IMG/VR virus record: IMGVR_UViG_3300017989_000312
Span: 1-30,943 of that record
Direction: 5' to 3' (one strand)
DNA length: 30,943 bases
DNA from: a virus
A program made the translations under genes and the position numbers. The notes under the pieces were generated by a model, which saw only the letters and a list, made by a program, of their open reading frames with translations, did not search any database and was not told the DNA's origin. Below are positions 8,417-26,027 of this stretch, piece by piece; within the stretch, counting starts at the first letter, position 1; each line of letters starts with the position of its first letter.

Positions 8417-9481
8417 ATGGGACGCCGCCGATGCTGCTGCGGATGCTGGAGTGCCTCGGACAACTTCAACCGCGCCGACTCCACCAACATCGGCTCCCGG
8501 TGGGTCGAGTGCAACGGGGATTGGTACATCACGGAGAACCAGCTCGGCGTGACGGGGATCGGCGACACGCTCTTCCTCCAACGGCCGCCGCGGTCCGTCA
8601 ACGGGATTGGCGAGGTCTACCTGCGAGACCTCACCCCGGGCCGGATCTACTCAATCGTCTACGGCGACGGATTCTGGAACGAACCGTACTGCCGAAATGA
8701 CCCGGAGGAGATCCGCTACGAGCTGCAATTTGAGACGTACGAAGTGGGAGGGATGCTGCGACTCGTCCGCGTGGCGGCCGGGGAGGGCGAGTCGATCGTT
8801 GCCTACGAGCAAATCGCCGATCTCTCGCCAAACCCACGACTCTCCCTCTGCGCGTCCCCTGAACGACTCAGCGGCTGGATCGACGGCGCCACTTACCCCG
8901 TCATCGATTGCGGGCAAGCGACCGGCCACTGGTGGGGCCTCGCCTCACGAGGCACCGGGGAGCACCTGTTCGACAACTGGCGACTCACCGAGCACTACGC
9001 CCAAAACCCCGACTGCCCGATGTGCTGGTGTGGATGCGACGGCTTCTGCATGCCCGACCGGCTGCGGTATACCTTCGTCGACGATAGCTACTGCACCCAC
9101 CTCGACGGAGTGACGGGACACCTCGACGGCCCCGGCGGCTGCGTGTGGGAATCGGACCCGATCGACGACATCTGCTACGACGACTTTAACGGACTGTTCG
9201 AGCCGTTCCGACTCCGGCTCACCAACCTCGACTCGGGCAATGAGTACACACCCGCGGTTGGCGGTTGGCGACTTGGGGCCCCGCGCTCGCCGGTCGGAGA
9301 CCCGGAGATCTTTCACGGCGAGTCGCTCGAAGGCTCGCTCTGCGATCCGCTCTACCTGAAGTTTGGGCCGTTCAGTTTCACCGACAACCCGATGGACGGC
9401 CTGTGTTGCGAGGGCTACTGGCCGACCGAACAGATCGAGGACGGCCAATCGGGCAGTTTCTACGTGGTGGTGACCTTATGA
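8417..9481 (+). CDS. Cys-rich tail fibre-like protein with lectin-type fold candidate
   Basis: 354 residues starting one base after the previous stop. After the Cys cluster RRCCCGCW comes 'DNFNRADSTNIGSRWVECNGDWYITENQLGV', a pattern typical of concanavalin/LamG-like jelly-roll domains found in planctomycete surface and tail proteins. Further on are 'FDNWRLTEHYAQNPDCPMCW' and 'CGCDGFCMPDRLRYTF'. A receptor-binding fibre or spike is a reasonable guess given it is the last gene of the tail module. The many Cys residues suggest disulfides or metal sites. Confidence 0.5.
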   Translation: MGRRRCCCGCWSASDNFNRADSTNIGSRWVECNGDWYITENQLGVTGIGDTLFLQRPPRSVNGIGEVYLRDLTPGRIYSIVYGDGFWNEPYCRNDPEEIRYELQFETYEVGGMLRLVRVAAGEGESIVAYEQIADLSPNPRLSLCASPERLSGWIDGATYPVIDCGQATGHWWGLASRGTGEHLFDNWRLTEHYAQNPDCPMCWCGCDGFCMPDRLRYTFVDDSYCTHLDGVTGHLDGPGGCVWESDPIDDICYDDFNGLFEPFRLRLTNLDSGNEYTPAVGGWRLGAPRSPVGDPEIFHGESLEGSLCDPLYLKFGPFSFTDNPMDGLCCEGYWPTEQIEDGQSGSFYVVVTL

Positions 9482-9483
9482 CC

Positions 9484-9855
9484 TCACCGGCTGTAAGCGT
9501 TGCCGACGCTCCTCGCCCAGACAGAGGCGGGCGTGTGCTCCCAATCCTCGCAGCGGGCGGCGAGCAGGCCGGCCTGCCGGTGGGCGGCATCGAATGCCGC
9601 CTTGCTGGGGAAATCGCCGCGCACGGACTGGCGGAAGTACCGATCGAGTCGGCCCTCCCAGGCCACGCGCCGACACTCGGCACAGCCCCAACATCGGACG
9701 TCGTCGGGGTGGACCGAGACCGGGCCGCCACACTCGCGACACCGGAAGCCATCGAACTGCGGCCAATCATCCAGTCCGGGACTGCGGCAGAGACACCAGA
9801 TCGACGCGGCCAGGAACAGAAAGAGACCAACGAGACAAAATTTTCGGAGCATCAT
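9484..9855 (-). CDS. Membrane-anchored Zn-ribbon protein, unknown function
   Basis: 124 residues on the minus strand, two bases after the convergent fibre gene. The start is set by AGGAGG (9865-9870 on plus) nine bases before the ATG at 9855. Residues 2-21 (MLRKFCLVGLFLFLAASIWC) form a signal anchor or lipoprotein-like leader. A CxxC...CxxC pair (FRCRECGGPVSVHPDDVRCWGCAEC) gives a Zn ribbon. The C-terminal half (AFDAAHRQAGLLAARCEDWEH) is helical. A 40-base gap separates it from the divergent 9896 gene. It may be a phage moron; the family is not recognised. Confidence 0.6.
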   Translation of the reverse strand: MMLRKFCLVGLFLFLAASIWCLCRSPGLDDWPQFDGFRCRECGGPVSVHPDDVRCWGCAECRRVAWEGRLDRYFRQSVRGDFPSKAAFDAAHRQAGLLAARCEDWEHTPASVWARSVGNAYSR

Positions 9856-9895
9856 CGTAGGAACCCTCCTGACCCCATTCTTGCCATATATACAC

Positions 9896-11239
9896 ATGAG
9901 TCAAGCGCTCTGCCAATGCGATCTACCGCCCGACGCCGCCGGTATCGACTGCCCGCGTCACGCGGTCTATAAGCCACGCCGGCTGGTCGAGTTGTGCAAT
10001 GCGGGGGCCCGCGGCGAGTCCCCGGCCGATCGGTACTGGACCGCGTGGGAAGAGGGGAGGGGCCCCGGCCAGCCGGGCGCCGCGGCGATCGCCGCCATCC
10101 CCCGCCACGGGGGCGCCCGGCTCTTGGCGCAGATCCGGGCCTACGTCCTCTCTCGCCGCCCGCTGTTCGATCCGAACGCCGACCTGGACAAGACACTCCA
10201 ATGGATGAATGCCCGGCCCTGGCCCCAGATCGAGCAGTCCGCCAGGATCTGCGCCACCTGCCCCGAATGCACCGGCCGGCTCTGCCGCCGATTCGGCAGC
10301 TCGTGTCAGGATCGCCAGCGATGGCTACGGCAGCTCCTGACGCGCTCCTGCGAGCGGGAGGAGGAACTCCAACGAACCAGCATACGACGCCTGGAAACGC
10401 CCTTCGTGACCATCGACGATCTACAACGGCAGACTCGAACACTGGTTGGGCGCCTCCCTCCCACGATCACCGACGTCGTGGGGATCGCGAGGTCGGGGTT
10501 GATCCCGGCGACGATCCTCGCCTGCCTGATCCACCGGCCCCTCTGGTCGCTGTCGACCACGGGCCTGAATGACTTGGGGACCACTTACCGGCTCCAAACG
10601 GCCGCCGCCCCGCCGGCCAAACGCCACGCGCTTCTACTCGACGATACCGCGTTCAAGGGTGGCGCGATGCGCCGCTTCCCCGCGATCCTCCGCGAGCACT
10701 GGCCCGACGCGCAGATCCTCCGCGCCGTGGTTTACTCGACCCCGGCGGCGAAGCGGTTTGTCGATCTGTCTGCCGCGGAGTTGCCGCCGCCGCATTATCT
10801 CGAATGGCACTGGAGCAATTCCCCCCTGGCCCATGCGTGCTGGGATTTTGACGGGCTGCTCTGTGAAGACTGTCTGCCGGAGGACGACGACGACGGGCCA
10901 CGTTACGAGCAATTCCTCGCCACCGCCCGGCCGCGATACTACGCGCGCCACACCACCCTGCCGCTCGTCGTGACCGCCCGGCTCGACCGGCCGCGTTACC
11001 GCGAGCTGACCCAAAACTGGCTCCGTCGACACGGCATCCGCTGCGACCGGCTGGTAATGGGCCCCTGGGGCTCACTCCAGGAGCGCGCGGCGCCGCTGGC
11101 CGTCGAGCGCTTCAAGTCGGCCCACTACCGGCAGAGCAAGCTCCGCCTGTTCATCGAATCGGACGCCCGCCAGGCCCGCGTCATCGCCCGCCTGGCCCAG
11201 AAACCGGTCTTGTGCCCCGCCGCCGGCGTCGTGTATTAA
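9896..11239 (+). CDS. Fusion protein: phosphoribosyltransferase-like plus HAD-like domain
   Basis: 447 residues from ATG 9896. Residues 1-150 are Cys-rich (CQCDLPPDAAGIDCPRHAVYK; CPECTGRLCRRFGSSC), probably Zn-binding. About 170-290 look like a type I PRTase: 'VVGIARSGLIPATILA' and the PRPP-loop-like 'ALLLDDTAFKGGAM' (residues 246-258). From about 312 a HAD-like phosphohydrolase begins with 'CWDFDGLL' (D317-x-D319) and later 'LPLVVTARLDRPRY' and 'LRLFIESDARQARVIA'. Such fusions could process PRPP-derived or nucleotide-like substrates, or act in surface glycan or nucleotide modification; the substrate is not visible. No Shine-Dalgarno; a TATATA lies just upstream of the start. Confidence 0.6.
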   Translation: MSQALCQCDLPPDAAGIDCPRHAVYKPRRLVELCNAGARGESPADRYWTAWEEGRGPGQPGAAAIAAIPRHGGARLLAQIRAYVLSRRPLFDPNADLDKTLQWMNARPWPQIEQSARICATCPECTGRLCRRFGSSCQDRQRWLRQLLTRSCEREEELQRTSIRRLETPFVTIDDLQRQTRTLVGRLPPTITDVVGIARSGLIPATILACLIHRPLWSLSTTGLNDLGTTYRLQTAAAPPAKRHALLLDDTAFKGGAMRRFPAILREHWPDAQILRAVVYSTPAAKRFVDLSAAELPPPHYLEWHWSNSPLAHACWDFDGLLCEDCLPEDDDDGPRYEQFLATARPRYYARHTTLPLVVTARLDRPRYRELTQNWLRRHGIRCDRLVMGPWGSLQERAAPLAVERFKSAHYRQSKLRLFIESDARQARVIARLAQKPVLCPAAGVVY

Positions 11240-11275
11240 GCGAATGGCGGCGGCGCGACGGGAGTGACTCGACCG

Positions 11276-12319
11276 ATGACTGACTCCAGCCTCCAGCCTC
11301 CGGCCTCCGGCCCCTATTGCTCCAAACCCTGGACCGACCTGGAGCTGGACGCCCGCGGCGCCCGGACGTGCTGCAGCGCGTGGCTCGACCGGGCCGCGTA
11401 CGTGCACGACTCCGACGAGGCCGACCCCTGGAAGCTGTGGAACGCGGAGCCGATCCAGCGACTCCGGCGGGCGGTGGCCGCCGGCGACCGCTCGCTCTGC
11501 CGGGGCTGCGCGTGGCTGCGGAGCGGGACACAGCCGCAACTGGACGTGGCGGATCCGCGGCCGGTCGTCGAGCACGGGCCCAAGGTGCTGGCCGACTGCG
11601 TCGACCGCACCTGCAACCTCCACTGCTCGAGCTGCCGGAAACAGCCGATCGGCCCGCCCAAGAATTGGCGGGACCTGGCCACCCGGCTGGAGATGGCCAT
11701 CGGAGCTTTTGGGGCGACGCTCGAAACCTACAGCACCAGCCAGATCGGCGACCCGTTTGCGTCGCCCGTCTCTCATCGTGCGCTCCGCTCGCACTGGCTC
11801 ACCTGGTCGCCGTGCAAGCTGATGATCTGCACCAACGCCCTCTTGATGCCGATCGTCTGGCCCAGATTGCCGCCCCAAGTCCGGGATCGGCTCCAGCGGG
11901 TGCACGTGTCGATCGACGCGGCCGACGGCGACACCTACGAGCTGCTCAGGCGCGGCGGCAACTGGGACCAGCTCACCCAGGCGCTCAACTGGCTGGCCAT
12001 GCTCCGCGAGACCGGCCAGCCCGAGGTGCTCCAGTACCAGTTTATCCTCCAGGCGGACAACTGGCGGCAGGCGCCGATGTTCATCGAGCTGGCCAAGCAC
12101 GCCCGGGCCTCTTGCGTCGTGTTCACCCACCTGCGGCGGAACTGGATGCCCAAAGACGTCTGGGCCGCCAAGACGATGGCCAGCCCCGACCATCCGGACC
12201 GGGCCGAATTCGACGCGATGATCGACGGCCCCGCGTTGCGTGACCCGATCGTCGATCGTCGCCACCTCCATCCGGACGTGATGCGTCAGGTGTGGGAGGC
12301 GGGCAACGCGAGACCGTAG
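11276..12319 (+). CDS. Radical SAM protein with N-terminal SPASM-like Cys motif
   Basis: 347 residues. ATG 11276 is preferred to GTG 11264 (GGGAG lies eleven bases before the ATG). Near the N-terminus Cys15, Cys32, Cys33, Cys75 and Cys78 form a SPASM-like auxiliary cluster region (YCSKPWTDLELDARG; LCRGCAW). Then comes 'CVDRTCNLHCSSCRK' with C113-x3-C117-x2-C120, the radical SAM [4Fe-4S] motif. 'WSPCKLMICTNALLMP' and 'RVHVSIDAADGDTYELLRRGG' fit the TIM barrel. The SPASM part precedes the barrel here, which I associate with enzymes of cell-surface or peptide modification. Substrate unknown. The first codons contain the CCAGCCTCCGGCC repeat. Confidence 0.75.
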   Translation: MTDSSLQPPASGPYCSKPWTDLELDARGARTCCSAWLDRAAYVHDSDEADPWKLWNAEPIQRLRRAVAAGDRSLCRGCAWLRSGTQPQLDVADPRPVVEHGPKVLADCVDRTCNLHCSSCRKQPIGPPKNWRDLATRLEMAIGAFGATLETYSTSQIGDPFASPVSHRALRSHWLTWSPCKLMICTNALLMPIVWPRLPPQVRDRLQRVHVSIDAADGDTYELLRRGGNWDQLTQALNWLAMLRETGQPEVLQYQFILQADNWRQAPMFIELAKHARASCVVFTHLRRNWMPKDVWAAKTMASPDHPDRAEFDAMIDGPALRDPIVDRRHLHPDVMRQVWEAGNARP

Positions 12320-12342
12320 GGTGCAGAGTGGAGGAAAGAGCC

Positions 12343-12723
12343 ATGGACAACACGACGCTGCTGCCCTGCCCGTTCTGCGGGACTCTGAGAGTCCACGTCC
12401 GACCGCTCGTCTACGAACCGGAGGGGGACGGGCTATGCGACGACGGCTATTACGTCGAGTGCATCGCCTGCGGCCCGGTCGGACCATCCTTTGCCGATCC
12501 GGAGAAGGCCGCGCGGCACTGGAACCGACGTAAGCCCGACTGGCACTTCAGCCAGTCTAACGGCGACCGCTGGCGAGTGAGCTTCTCGGTCGACGTCATC
12601 GTCGAAACAGGCCCGGGATCGCCCGGCGTGGAAGCGCTGGCCTGGGAGAAGTTCAAAGCCCACGACCTCGACCGATCCGCGCTGAGAGAGATCATCTGCG
12701 AGGACGCTCCCGTCACCGAGTAA
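12343..12723 (+). CDS. Lar-type restriction alleviation / Zn-ribbon protein
   Basis: 126 residues, GGAGGAAAG eight bases before ATG. The first 60 residues carry the Lar family pattern: 'LLPCPFCG' ... 'YYVECIACGPVGPSFADPEKAARHWNRR', i.e. CxxCG, then CxxCG, then an Ala-rich helix ending in a WNRR. Phage Lar proteins modulate host type I restriction-modification, though most family members are unproven. The last 60 residues (RWRVSFSVDVIVE ... CEDAPVTE) are not part of the core family. Confidence 0.75.
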   Translation: MDNTTLLPCPFCGTLRVHVRPLVYEPEGDGLCDDGYYVECIACGPVGPSFADPEKAARHWNRRKPDWHFSQSNGDRWRVSFSVDVIVETGPGSPGVEALAWEKFKAHDLDRSALREIICEDAPVTE

Positions 12724-13084
12724 ACCCCGGCCCTGGGCAGCCGGCGGGGGGAGGCCGCCATACCGACGATCCCCGCCGGTGGGGCGAAACACGAATTAAC
12801 GATATGAGTCTTGGACTCAAGGGCTCAAAACCCCATTTCGTGCTTTTCGTGGCCGATCCCCAAGCACGAAACGGCAGATTTGCCCCTCAGAACCATGGTT
12901 TTGGACACGCATTTTCGGCCAAAACGGCCGCTACCAGCTCGGAAGAGGGCTGGTGCCGGCGAGGCCGGGTGAAAACCACTCACCCAAACATACCGGCCCC
13001 GCCGGCACCAAGCGCCAACGGCACCACGAAGAGCGCGAAGGACACGAAGAGTTGAACCCTCATCCCTGACCCCTGGCCCCTGAA
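12724..13084. other. Gene-free gap packed with hairpins and repeats
   Basis: No convincing gene. It holds a CACGAA hairpin (TTTCGTGCTT at 12836-12845 pairs with AAGCACGAAA at 12862-12871), a long stem (12952-12968 with 12993-13009, 16 of 17 pairs) with an inner GGGTGA/TCACCC stem, a lone CACGAAG arm near 13022-13050, and a CCCTG repeat directly before the 13085 start. It may contain transcript ends or processing sites. Confidence 0.6.
12952..13009. terminator. Large two-layer hairpin, possible terminator or processing site
   Basis: Arms GGTGCCGGCGAGGCCGG and CCGGCCCCGCCGGCACC pair except for one A/C position; inside, GGGTGA pairs with TCACCC. No T-run follows, so intrinsic termination is not shown. 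Confidence 0.4.
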
Positions 13085-13795
13085 ATGCTCCTCGACCTCC
13101 ACAAGAAATTCTGCGAGATCCACATCCCGAGGACCGGCGGCGTCGCCCGGGCGATCGCCCTGAAGCCGTGGCTCTCGGCCCATTGTCGGATCGACCTGAT
13201 CGACCGGCACTGGACGGCCCAAGAGATCCGCGAGCAGATCGGCGCCGATTTGTGGGACACGCTCTACCGGTACGCAGTGCTCCGCGACCCGCGGGAGGTG
13301 ATCTCCAGCGACTACCGGCTCACGCTGGCCGACGTTCACCACATGCGGCACCACGGGGCCGAGTTCACCGGCCTCTGGCGGCGAAAGGTCAACCTGCTCG
13401 CCTCTGACCCGAGTTTTGCCAACTTCGCCCGCCGCGAGTATTTGCGGCCGATGCCGCCGGGCGGGTTGTGGGAGCACTGGTGTCGGGGCCACGGGCTCTA
13501 CCGGGGGCTCGACCTGGGCGTGGAGCTGATCCCCTACCCGGAGCTGCACGAGCGCTGGCCGGCGATCTGCGAGCGGATCGGCATCCAGCACACGCACCCG
13601 GCCGGCCGCTCCGACCGCTGCCCGATGAGCGATTTGCACCCCTGCCCGATCTGCTTCTTGCCCGAGACGAACCGGTCGGGCGGTCATCCGCCCGCGTACC
13701 CGCGAGAGCTGGGCCTGGAGATCGACCGCCATTTCCGCGGCGACTTGAAACGGCTCGGGTTGACCGAGCGGCTGGCAGCGGTCGAAGGGGGTTGA
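13085..13795 (+). CDS. Sulfotransferase-family protein
   Basis: 236 residues; ATG directly follows a TGGCCCCTGAA repeat. 'CEIHIPRTGGVARAI' (residues 10-24) matches the 5' phosphosulfate (PAPS) loop of sulfotransferases (H-I-P-R/K-T-G-G), and 'YRYAVLRDPREVISSDYRL' (about 60-80) matches the 3' phosphate motif (R-D-P ... S-x-Y). These are the key PAPS-binding elements. The C-terminal part (CPICFLPETN) has extra Cys. It would transfer sulfate to a glycan or peptide. In the phage it could alter the host surface or a virion part. Codon use looks like the neighbours. Confidence 0.72.
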   Translation: MLLDLHKKFCEIHIPRTGGVARAIALKPWLSAHCRIDLIDRHWTAQEIREQIGADLWDTLYRYAVLRDPREVISSDYRLTLADVHHMRHHGAEFTGLWRRKVNLLASDPSFANFARREYLRPMPPGGLWEHWCRGHGLYRGLDLGVELIPYPELHERWPAICERIGIQHTHPAGRSDRCPMSDLHPCPICFLPETNRSGGHPPAYPRELGLEIDRHFRGDLKRLGLTERLAAVEGG

Positions 13796-14287: not shown

Positions 14288-14980
14288 CTAAAACTGGTCG
14301 CGGACCCAGGCCTGGTCGTCCTCGCTCAACTTCTCCATCGAGAGCGAGATCTCCGAGCCGTCCGCCTTGCGGAGGGTCACCGTGCCCATCGACAGGCGGA
14401 CGAACTCGGCCTCGACCGTGAACTCGCCCGACGTGTCGGTCCACGTGCGGAAGTCCGGGGCCGGGGGCTCGGGATCCTCGACCTCCTCCGGCGGCGGTGC
14501 AGCCAGGCCGGTCGGCTCCCCTCCGTCCATCGCGAGCAGCTCGTCGACCGCCCGCTGAGAGCCAAACACAGGGTCGCCCGAAAGGCTTACGAAGATCGGC
14601 GCCCACTGGTCGCGTGACCGGTCCAAGACCGCGACGACCTCCCAGGGCTCTCGTACGACGGCCCCGAAAGCGTTTTGGGCATCGACCACGCCCGTCACCA
14701 CGCACCCAAAATACTCGTCGGTGTCACACACGACCCGGCTTTGAACAAAATCCCAGGGGTACTCCGCCGAGGAAGGCGACCGAAGACGCCCCTCAAGCAC
14801 CGTCTTGGCGAACTGGACCCCGGCCGCCCGGGAACCGGACCGAAGCTCCTCCGCGTCGGAAACCGGCTGCGTGGCCGACGGCGCGGAAGGGGTTGGGCCG
14901 CCCCCGCCTCCGCAGGCAAAGATGCAGGCCGCGAGAACAACGGCCGAGACTGCCCCCAATGCACGAATCCACGACCGCAT
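14288..14980 (-). CDS. Lipoprotein with C-terminal SHD1 domain
   Basis: 230 residues on minus. ATG 14980 is preferred to 14995 because GGGGAG lies seven bases upstream of it. The leader 'MRSWIRALGAVSAVVLAACIFAC' has a lipobox (LAAC, Cys19), so the protein is probably an outer or inner membrane lipoprotein. Residues about 177-230 ('FRTWTDTSGEFTVEAEFVRLS' ... 'VTLRKADGSEISLSMEKLSEDDQAWV') match the SLA1 homology domain 1 (SHD1), a domain characteristic of planctomycete surface proteins. A Pro/Glu-rich linker precedes it. Its presence in a phage region suggests host-derived cargo or a region boundary. Confidence 0.75.
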   Translation of the reverse strand: MRSWIRALGAVSAVVLAACIFACGGGGGPTPSAPSATQPVSDAEELRSGSRAAGVQFAKTVLEGRLRSPSSAEYPWDFVQSRVVCDTDEYFGCVVTGVVDAQNAFGAVVREPWEVVAVLDRSRDQWAPIFVSLSGDPVFGSQRAVDELLAMDGGEPTGLAAPPPEEVEDPEPPAPDFRTWTDTSGEFTVEAEFVRLSMGTVTLRKADGSEISLSMEKLSEDDQAWVRDQF

Positions 14981-15186
14981 GGCGAGACTCCCCATTCAAG
15001 GGCGGCCCGGCCGCGATCGAATGGGGCAAGACCCGGCCAGGCCGCCAGCCCAAAAACGGCTCCGCCCCCATGATGCGCCCCGCGAGCCGGCTGTCAACCC
15101 CCGCGGTAGCCGACCGCCAGCCCCGGCGGTGAGGACCACCAGGGAAATTCTGATCGTAGGGGCCGCGAGAATTCCCCAGCACTTTC

Positions 15187-20632: not shown

Positions 20633-20791
20633 ATGCCGTTGTCGCACGTGATTCAATTGCTGTTGGCCGTGGCCCTGCTGGCGGCCTACGCGGCCGTGGG
20701 TGAGCTGATCGTCCGCGGTTGGACGCCGGACCGGCCGAGCGTGGAGCTGCTGCCGAGGGAGGCAGCCGTAGAGAGACTCAGGGACCGATAG
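20633..20791 (+). CDS. Small membrane protein, 52 residues
   Basis: ATG 20633 with GAGGGA seven bases upstream. 'MPLSHVIQLLLAVALLAAYAAVGELIV' is one membrane helix, followed by a charged tail 'RGWTPDRPSVELLPREAAVERLRDR'. Stop is 17 bases before the replication gene. Function unknown; small hydrophobic proteins are common in phage early operons. Confidence 0.5.
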   Translation: MPLSHVIQLLLAVALLAAYAAVGELIVRGWTPDRPSVELLPREAAVERLRDR

Positions 20792-20808
20792 ACAAGGAGG
20801 TGGCCAGG

Positions 20809-21846
20809 ATGGCCGGAGGCGTGTGTGACGAGCTGGGGCACCTCTTTCGAGAGCCGTCGATCGGCGCGGCCAGCAAGCTGGCCTTCTTGCGGTTGTGGGA
20901 GGCAGCGGGCAAGGAGCCGGGCGAGATCATGATCAGCCTGGCGGACCTCGGCCACGCCTACGGGAGGTCGCGACGCGCCGCGCGCAAGTGGATCGACGAG
21001 CTGGCCGCGGCCGGCCTGGTCCAGATCGACGATCACGACGATCGCCGCGGACGCGTCTACCTCACCGTGTGGAGTCCGCACCCGGGCCGCCGCGAGCGCC
21101 GGCCCGACCTGCAACAGCGGCTCCCGCTCAGTTTCGACCGGCCCGAACTGGCGGAGCCGGCCCCCCGGTCCGAGGGAAATCGGGCGGACGTTAGCGCGCC
21201 CAAAGGTCCGTCCGAGGCCGATCGGGCGGACGTTACCGCGCGCAAAGGTCCGCCCAAACCACCCCGGGCGGACGTTAGCGCGCACAAACGTCCGGCCACC
21301 CCGTGCGAGGGCGAGGGCGAGGGGAAACCCCACGCGCGGGCGCGCGCGGTCGACGTCGACGTCGTCAAAGAAGACAAAGTCTTACTTTCATGGTCGGCTA
21401 AGTCGACGTCGACGTCGACTGTCGACCAGAAGGAAACGGACCAAGAGACGGACGACGAGCCGGCCGTGATCTGGCGGGACGCGGTCGAGGACGCCTTTCG
21501 TTGGCTGGCCAAATTCCCGCGGCTCCGCGCCGGCATCAAAGACCCCCGCAACCGCTCGCTCTGGCTCAAAAGCAACTACCTGGCCCGCGCCGAGCTAAGC
21601 GAGCAGTGGCTCCGCGACTCGCTGGAGGCGATGGAGCAAGTCATCGCGTCCCGGGGCGGGAACCCGTGGGCCTACCTGCACACCTGCCTCGCGAATCGCG
21701 CCTGGGGTGAGCACCGGCCCGATTTCCAGCGGGGCGTGGCGGCCCGCGCGTTTCACGCCCGCCTGGCCTCGATCGATCTGACCATGGCCGACGACGTGAT
21801 CCGGCTCCGCCGGCATTTTGAGCGGGCCCCGCCCCTGCATCGATGA
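20809..21846 (+). CDS. Winged-helix replication initiation protein
   Basis: 345 residues from ATG 20809, AAGGAGG ahead (20794-20800). Residues about 15-90 form a helix-turn-helix/winged helix: 'ASKLAFLRLWEAAGKEPGE', 'MISLADLGHAYGRSRRAARKWIDELAAAGLV', 'RVYLTVWSP'. This is the layout of phage replication initiators (O/DnaD-like). Residues 125-166 are three 14-residue repeats starting RADV, encoded by DNA iterons. A low-complexity part (VDVDVVKEDK ... STSTSTVDQKE) encoded by GTCGAC repeats follows, then a C-terminal helical domain (AFRWLAKFPRLRAG). Initiator plus internal origin is the lambda O arrangement. Confidence 0.65.
   Translation: MAGGVCDELGHLFREPSIGAASKLAFLRLWEAAGKEPGEIMISLADLGHAYGRSRRAARKWIDELAAAGLVQIDDHDDRRGRVYLTVWSPHPGRRERRPDLQQRLPLSFDRPELAEPAPRSEGNRADVSAPKGPSEADRADVTARKGPPKPPRADVSAHKRPATPCEGEGEGKPHARARAVDVDVVKEDKVLLSWSAKSTSTSTVDQKETDQETDDEPAVIWRDAVEDAFRWLAKFPRLRAGIKDPRNRSLWLKSNYLARAELSEQWLRDSLEAMEQVIASRGGNPWAYLHTCLANRAWGEHRPDFQRGVAARAFHARLASIDLTMADDVIRLRRHFERAPPLHR
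21181..21425. other. Probable replication origin: three iterons plus AT-richer patch
   Basis: Three 30-nt iterons at 21181, 21223 and 21265 (exact 42-nt period) start CGGGCGGACGTTA and end near GGTCCG or CGTCCG; in iteron 3 CGGACGTT and AACGTCCG are a perfect inverted repeat. Rightward, GTCGAC repeats (21349-21363 and 21402-21425) flank the AT-richer stretch AAAGAAGACAAAGTCTTACT. All lie inside the initiator gene, as the lambda origin lies in O. Confidence 0.6.
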
Positions 21847-25223: not shown

Positions 25224-26027
25224 GTGGAGTTGATCTTGTCCTGTTTCCCGGGCGTCGGGATTTTTGATCGGGCTTTCGAGGCCGAGGGGTTTTGCGTCGT
25301 GCGCGGGCCGGACCTCTTGTGGGGTGGCGACATCCGGCGATTTCACCCGCCCGCGGGCAAATTCTGGGGCGTCAAGGGCGGCTCCCCGTGCCAGGATTTT
25401 TCCAGCGCCCGCCGGGCCCCACCGACCGGCGAGGGTGCGGAGCTGATGGGCGAGTTTGCCCGCGTGGTGACGGAGGCCTCGCCGGAGTGGTGGCTCTTGG
25501 AAAACGTGCCGAGGGCGCCGGACCTGCGGATCGACGGTTACAGTTACCAGCGGGTCGACGTCAACCAGGCGTGGTACTCGGGCGTCTCCCGGCTCCGGCA
25601 TTTTCAGTTTGGCAGCCGGTCGGGCGTGACGATCGACATCCCGCGCGGTGAGCCGGTGCGCGGAGCGGAGCCGGCCGCGCTGGCTTGCGACGGCCGAAGC
25701 TTTGGGGAGGTCTGCCGGTTGCAGGGGTTGCCCCTTGAATTTGACCTGCCACCTTTCACGGCACGCGAAAAGAAAAGAGCGGTGGGAAACGCGGTGCCGC
25801 TGGTGATGGGGCGGGTGGTTGCCCAGGCGATCCGCCGGGCGTACGGCCTGGACACCGGGCCGACGCCGGTCTTTGACGGCACCGGATGCGAGCGGCGCCG
25901 TTGTCTCTGCGGTTGCGGCCGTCGGGTCACGGAGCGAGCCCTCTATGCGTCGGCCACTTGCCGCAAACGGGGCCAACGCCAGCGGGAGAAAGCGTCACGC
26001 GCGACCGGCCGGCCCGTCACGCCGTGA
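25224..26027 (+). CDS. DNA cytosine C5-methyltransferase
   Basis: 267 residues from GTG 25224. Motif I is 'LILSCFPGVGIFDRAF', motif IV 'GGSPCQDFS' with catalytic C56, motif VI 'WWLLENVPR' (93-95 ENV), motif VIII-like 'SRLRHFQFG', motif X 'AVGNAVPLVMG'. It is short for the family, and the target recognition region between VIII and IX is small. The tail from about 222 has a Zn-binding 'RRCLCGCGRRV' and 'YASATCRKRGQRQ', a common phage add-on. Last codons run into the GTCAC palindrome array. Confidence 0.9.
   Translation: MELILSCFPGVGIFDRAFEAEGFCVVRGPDLLWGGDIRRFHPPAGKFWGVKGGSPCQDFSSARRAPPTGEGAELMGEFARVVTEASPEWWLLENVPRAPDLRIDGYSYQRVDVNQAWYSGVSRLRHFQFGSRSGVTIDIPRGEPVRGAEPAALACDGRSFGEVCRLQGLPLEFDLPPFTAREKKRAVGNAVPLVMGRVVAQAIRRAYGLDTGPTPVFDGTGCERRRCLCGCGRRVTERALYASATCRKRGQRQREKASRATGRPVTP

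Follow-up and report, generated by a model that had tools for sequence, protein, structure and literature searches.

A recurrent phage tail-region cassette of phosphoribosyltransferase-phosphatase, radical SAM and sulfotransferase genes, and its possible role in decorating a cysteine-rich fibre

The window analyzed here is the whole of IMG/VR virus record IMGVR_UViG_3300017989_000312, a 30,943-base stretch from an uncultured phage whose proteins match head, tail-terminator and tail protein families weakly but consistently. Downstream of a Cys-rich tail fibre gene, it carries a block of genes for a phosphoribosyltransferase (PRTase) fused to a HAD phosphatase (PRTase-HAD), a radical SAM enzyme, a Lar-type protein and a sulfotransferase. 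The features concerned are the following.

8417..9481 (+), Cys-rich tail fibre or receptor-binding-like protein, 354 amino acids, the probable substrate (from its Cys content, homologues and a C-terminal profile match)
9896..11239 (+), PRTase-HAD gene, 447 amino acids
9896..10078 (+), N-terminal Cys/His domain of PRTase-HAD, a proposed adaptor (CxC..CxRH..K..LC..YW.AWEEGRGPGQ)
10385..10815 (+), type-I PRTase domain with the phosphoribosyl pyrophosphate (PRPP) loop LLLDDTAFKGG
10840..11239 (+), HAD phosphatase domain (DFDG, VVTAR, K, FIES)
11276..12319 (+), radical SAM enzyme, 347 amino acids, with an N-terminal SPASM/twitch-like Cys region
12343..12723 (+), Lar-type restriction alleviation protein
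13085..13795 (+), divergent, Sulfotransfer_2-like sulfotransferase

A preliminary description of this DNA had placed four open reading frames (ORFs) between 9896 and 13795, and their coordinates and gene calls proved correct, all four lying on the plus strand. It had them follow the fibre gene, which is the right order, except that an antisense ORF (9484-9897, -) intervenes between the fibre and PRTase-HAD genes, and it had overlooked the Cys/His domain at the N-terminus of the PRTase protein. The antisense ORF encodes 137 amino acids; its N-terminus is signal/lipobox-like, and one region of it is rich in Cys.

The PRTase/HAD fusion is genuine, and a Planctomycetota protein matches it over its full length (31% identity, E 2e-66). 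In a 26-member alignment, the RSG motif, the DD..G of the PRPP loop, a Trp and HAD motifs I-IV (DxDG, T.R, K, ES) are invariant without exception. The family profile recovers purine PRTases (1.6e-11) and the Pnkp1 phosphatase (3.9e-5) from the PDB, and the window protein itself matches the NCBIfam xanthine PRTase model (E 2.5e-7, under the model cut-off), XGPRT in the PDB (2e-4) and, with its HAD domain, the PHROG polynucleotide kinase/phosphatase family (1.8e-4). An AlphaFold (AF2) model of the protein has a predicted local distance difference test score (pLDDT) of 92.9, and the PRTase portion of this model aligns with XGPRT at 2e-9. The best solved structural matches are canonical XGPRT/OPRT folds, and no ribofuranosyltransferase entry is among the best 50 structural matches listed for this model. 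In XGPRT, Asp92 and Lys115 contact the purine. The window residues aligned with them are Phe and Thr, and these positions are not Asp and Lys across the 26-member family, an observation that speaks against an ordinary purine as acceptor; a purine salvage role was dropped on this ground.

Sequence, profile and model agree in placing a PRPP-binding transferase and a HAD phosphatase in a single polypeptide, the arrangement of the gPRT-PRP type of ribofuranosyltransferase. The glycan-biosynthesis context of that type is also present. Outside phages, PRTase-HAD genes lie among glycosyltransferase and lipopolysaccharide (LPS) genes (L063, L064) and in polysaccharide clusters at four plasmid loci (Rhizobium, Paracoccus and Bosea plasmids), and the phage copies have glycan enzymes beside them. 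On two Rhizobium plasmids (L107, L110), the PRTase-HAD gene is followed by glycosyltransferase genes and by the gene of a VgrG tip protein of type VI secretion, and the enzyme may therefore also serve a phage-tail-like device there.

The radical SAM call holds as well. The protein carries the CxxxCxxC motif (TCNLHCSSC) and matches an NCBIfam radical SAM model (3.5e-10); its Pfam score (0.01) is under the cut-off, and its relative in L054 reaches Radical_SAM at 6.9e-10, above the Pfam cut-off. The SPASM-like N-terminal match is below the cut-off in both (E 0.04 in the window, 0.0039 in L054). Over its full length, the window enzyme is 32-33% identical to radical SAM enzymes encoded with PRTase-HAD and a sulfotransferase in L054, L058 and L059.

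The protein encoded at 13085-13795 has no direct match in Pfam, NCBIfam or PHROG, and its identification as a sulfotransferase is argued through its relatives, which share its motifs and whose family hidden Markov model (HMM) includes clear Sulfotransfer_2 members. The 5'-phosphosulfate-binding (5'-PSB; HIPRTGG) and 3'-phosphate-binding (3'-PB; RDP..ISS) motifs are conserved in 19 relatives, with H13, P15, G19, R67 and S75 invariant and R16 present in at least 90%. The family HMM also collects the Sulfotransfer_2 proteins of L073, L101 and L105, which reach PF03567 at 1e-10 to 2e-15. On this evidence, the sulfotransferase call of the preliminary description can probably stand. In three other cassettes (L072, L075, L076), two sulfotransferase genes lie in tandem, which suggests two sulfation sites.

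Scans of viral contigs with each whole window protein as a single query returned no relatives, and neither did tblastn against 50,697 cultured phage records; the route to relatives was the N-terminal Cys motif. An alignment of PRTase-HAD found 17 contigs among 2.9 million viral contigs, seven with a window-type sulfotransferase and two more with a Sulfotransfer_4-type gene (L045, tested; L048, judged by eye). With a radical SAM alignment as the query, five viral loci were recovered and all five encode both PRTase-HAD and a sulfotransferase, and a sulfotransferase alignment recovered 36 loci, of which 15 encode PRTase-HAD. Because this last set is enriched in sulfotransferases by construction, the test lies in the reciprocal fractions and not in a pooled count. 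One match (L007, Sedimentitalea) was rejected by eye as false. Altogether, PRTase-HAD is carried by 34 contigs or genomes, which form 21 clusters at 70% identity, and among ten cluster representatives the identities of PRTase-HAD and sulfotransferase correlate (rho 0.66, Mantel p 0.0004).

Gene orders recur too. In L084-L086, the order is PRTase-HAD, radical SAM, methyltransferase and sulfotransferase, which is that of the window except that a methyltransferase stands where the window has Lar, and six other loci (L054, L057-L059, L069, L070) have PRTase-HAD, sulfotransferase, pyruvyltransferase and radical SAM genes. A Planctomycetota genome (G244, locus L030) has PRTase-HAD, sulfotransferase and methyltransferase genes, and a prophage-like locus (L062) has PRTase-HAD and a sulfotransferase. 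Sulfotransfer_4 proteins substitute for the sulfotransferase in L003 (2e-35) and L045 (5e-29). Neighbours of the phage cassettes include PS_pyruv_trans, Methyltransf_24, a weak CTP_transf_3 and glycosyltransferase families. Four loci (L045, L047, L048, L049) combine PRTase-HAD with a cytidylyltransferase-like gene (CTP_transf_3 at 0.00028 in L045, below the cut-off) and a gene that by eye is sialyltransferase-like, which suggests that an acidic sugar is activated within the same cassette.

Many phages that are not related to one another carry this set of PRTase-HAD, radical SAM and sulfotransferase genes, so the three make up a genuine cassette that is inherited together rather than an assortment brought about by chance. 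The preliminary description had proposed a survey of co-occurrence, and had held that its idea would fall if the genes were unrelated in other genomes and drifted independently; the survey was run, and the genes co-occur in many distinct phages, with correlated divergence of PRTase-HAD and sulfotransferase. Its inclusion of Lar in the block is not supported. The Lar gene belongs to its curated family (PF14354 at 7e-9, 36.2 bits against a cut-off of 28.6; TIGR03655 at 8e-11, 42.1 against 39.6), but Lar was not seen beside any other cassette examined, was rejected as a cassette member for this reason, and is probably a bystander.

The N-terminal domain of PRTase-HAD comprises about 60 residues (residues 6-59 of the protein) and ends in WEEGRGPGQ; 18 of its columns are invariant in seven proteins in which it accompanies different enzymes. 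It was found in four viral contigs and in 6 of 392 sampled Planctomycetota genomes, and no Pfam, NCBIfam or PHROG model for it was found. A regular expression for the domain matches 38 ORFs across the retrieved loci, which overlap in some cases, and none of the shuffled ORFs. In L002-L004, the domain comes immediately after a homologue of the window fibre gene, and in L005 after another Cys-rich tail gene. What follows it differs from locus to locus: PRTase-HAD in the window and in the Planctomycetota locus L030; a radical SAM/SPASM protein with a glycosyltransferase-like C-terminal part and then a Sulfotransfer_4 gene in L003; a glycosyltransferase-like region in L005; a GT2 enzyme and then a sulfotransferase in L087; and, in L002 and L004, nothing. 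Its companions in Planctomycetota genomes are GT2 enzymes, small Cys-rich proteins, and RHS giants or large TPR-glycosyltransferase genes. An N-terminal Cys-rich module is present on 17 of 18 tail-adjacent PRTase-HADs, a set that includes L030, a Planctomycetota genome locus beside an RHS gene, versus none of the six in polysaccharide clusters. Two further observations concern loci with this domain. In L030, L031 and L032 it adjoins RHS/YD-repeat proteins of 1300-2500 amino acids and GT2 genes, so that each has the appearance of a locus for modifying host surface proteins, and L003 (14848-19608) encodes a 1586-amino acid protein with an apparent intein (CVPEDHEILTRDGW ... VIPTGNS).

The fibre protein contains 5.4% Cys, compared with 0.7-3.0% in 13 other window ORFs, and has homologues at the same place in L002, L003, L004 and L087. 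Its C-terminal domain resembles small Cys-rich Planctomycetota proteins (hhalign probability 95%, E 3.9e-8), and in 20 loci the directly upstream gene, in the position of the fibre gene, is likewise Cys-rich (3-8%). We tentatively suggest that the Cys/His domain is an adaptor that docks interchangeable enzymes (ribosyltransferase-phosphatase, radical SAM-glycosyltransferase, GT2) on a Cys-rich beta domain of fibres and host surface proteins. Phages could then swap fibre-tip chemistries as they do fibre sequences, and the adaptor would be common to Planctomycetota phages and to Planctomycetota loci for RHS and small Cys-rich proteins.

The host is probably a member of the Planctomycetota, as judged from an SHD1-domain gene, a tail-gene homologue and the occurrence of the N-terminal domain in Planctomycetota genomes. 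The SHD1 gene (14288-14995, -) encodes a predicted lipoprotein (SHD1 domain, 1.5e-16), and phage L004 likewise has an SHD1 gene (10408-11502, -) after its Cys-domain gene, at the same relative place and in the same orientation. The tail-gene homologue is in Planctomycetota contig L061 (34%, E 8e-20), directly upstream of fibre and PRTase-HAD genes. Elsewhere, the window has a replication-initiation-like ORF (20719-21846) and a DNA methyltransferase-like ORF (25224-26027; PHROG 2.4e-18).

We propose, with a probability of about 0.55, that these genes form a phage glycan-decoration cassette that is expressed with the tail genes and whose most likely target is the Cys-rich fibre of the phage itself or a glycan carried by it. 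Ribosyl and sulfate decoration appears to be the best reading of the chemistry, given the known PRPP/HAD mechanism, the polysaccharide-cluster homologues and the glycan-tailoring neighbours. In the scheme that we infer, the N-terminal Cys/His domain would bring the enzyme to the fibre, the PRTase domain would transfer ribose-5-phosphate from PRPP to an acceptor other than a normal purine, and the fused HAD domain would strip the 5'-phosphate to leave a ribosyl group. The sulfotransferase would add sulfate from 3'-phosphoadenosine 5'-phosphosulfate (PAPS), and the radical SAM enzyme would make one further change. All of this would take place in the cytosol, before assembly, with the fibre or its attached glycan as the target. 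This target is favoured because the enzymes are predicted to be soluble and their donors, PRPP, PAPS and S-adenosylmethionine, are cytosolic; the Cys-rich upstream genes of the 20 loci and the Cys module of nearly all tail-adjacent PRTase-HADs also speak for it. The idea in the preliminary description that an unusual group is transferred to a surface glycan or to the fibre fits the recurrence of the cassette and its glycan-enzyme neighbours, with Lar taken out.

Several observations weigh against this proposal. The top five PDB matches of the sulfotransferase model belong to the sulfotransferase superfamily, in line with the relatives, but are weak and by themselves not significant (E about 0.5-1.8). 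The PRTase-HAD of L044 has no N-terminal module, no acceptor-building glycosyltransferase was found in the window's cassette, and the match between the fibre and host Cys proteins comes from comparing profiles built on few sequences. Moreover, the link to the fibre is not universal, because in a marine-type clade (L054, L058, L072, L085), whose modules are of the form CxC..PPNWQWC, the cassette adjoins no Cys-rich fibre gene (Cys 1-2%).

That same clade fits a different reading, in which the target of the cassette is a glycan on the host surface, LPS or exopolysaccharide, modified for instance to shut out competing phages, and the site of the genes in the tail region reflects only the timing of expression. 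The LPS- and exopolysaccharide-type clusters around the non-phage PRTase-HADs also agree with this, as do the pyruvyltransferase and glycosyltransferases beside related phage copies, which are surface-glycan functions. However, no membrane enzyme or flippase was recognized in the gene lists of the cassette loci that were read, the genes are placed with late tail genes, and the Cys module is confined to tail-adjacent enzymes and, next to fibre genes, is joined to a variety of enzymes. We consider a host-glycan target unlikely. Synthesis of a small nucleoside-like metabolite (a signal, toxin or counter-defence compound) is improbable: the PRTase fold is nearest to xanthine/guanine PRTases, and PRTase plus HAD chemistry would yield a nucleoside, but the pair aligned with the XGPRT purine contacts Asp92 and Lys115 is conserved in 0 of 26 members, the neighbours are glycan enzymes, and no ATP-grasp or amidotransferase partner was recognized. 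Lar is evidently unrelated, PRTase-HAD phages L050-L053 have neither sulfotransferase nor radical SAM, and L080 has a sulfotransferase alone, as expected of independent passengers with no common pathway; the reciprocal co-location (5/5 and 15/36), repeated gene orders and correlated divergence contradict this reading and make it very improbable, and plain independent morons were dropped on the reciprocal co-location. Finally, the idea that PRTase-HAD takes DNA or nucleotides as its substrate, in salvage or in base modification, for which the weak xanthine PRTase and polynucleotide kinase/phosphatase matches speak, is scarcely credible given the tail-region location away from the replication genes, the glycan-enzyme partners (grounds on which DNA modification was dropped) and the polysaccharide-cluster homologues.

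If the fibre-decoration proposal is correct, a plug-in enzyme set allows some phages to vary the chemistry of their receptor-binding fibres by adding ribose, sulfate and other groups. The reading of fibre-receptor specificity from sequence alone would change, and both the recurrent unannotated tail-region genes and the Cys/His domain would gain a testable function. None of the chemistries is new in itself; what appears to be new to the open-licence literature searched is their repeated combination at phage tail loci with a shared Cys/His domain, of which we found no description there, although this is weak evidence of absence.

The closest precedents are ribofuranosyltransferases in which PRPP transfer is followed by HAD dephosphorylation within one protein, namely gPRT and PRP of O-antigen synthesis (PMC11127046 and its ref. 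2), the C and M domains of Cj1432 (PMC12096443) and CriT/CrpP of Hib Bcs3 (PMC10299916). The window protein shares with them the union of PRPP transferase and HAD phosphatase in one polypeptide and the link to glycan assembly. It differs from them in its canonical type-I purine-PRTase fold before the HAD domain, its extra N-terminal Cys/His module and its phage tail setting, and its activity is a prediction. XGPRT is the closest solved fold of the PRTase domain, and the PRPP loop is intact; unlike XGPRT, the window protein lacks conservation at the positions aligned with purine contacts, is fused to a HAD domain and has no salvage context. The sulfotransferase shares the 5'-PSB and 3'-PB motifs with Sulfotransfer_2 (PF03567), which members of its HMM family reach, and Sulfotransfer_4 (PF17784) takes its place in two loci; unlike proteins of either family, it scores below every curated model. 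For mycobacteriophage Maravista, phage-encoded virion glycosylation has been predicted, with two glycosyltransferases and a capsid protein (PMC11256854). As there, phage-carried transferase genes are proposed here to act on the phage's own virion protein, whereas the window would bring ribose, sulfate and radical SAM chemistry to bear beside a Cys-rich fibre, with an adaptor-like domain borne by the enzyme itself.

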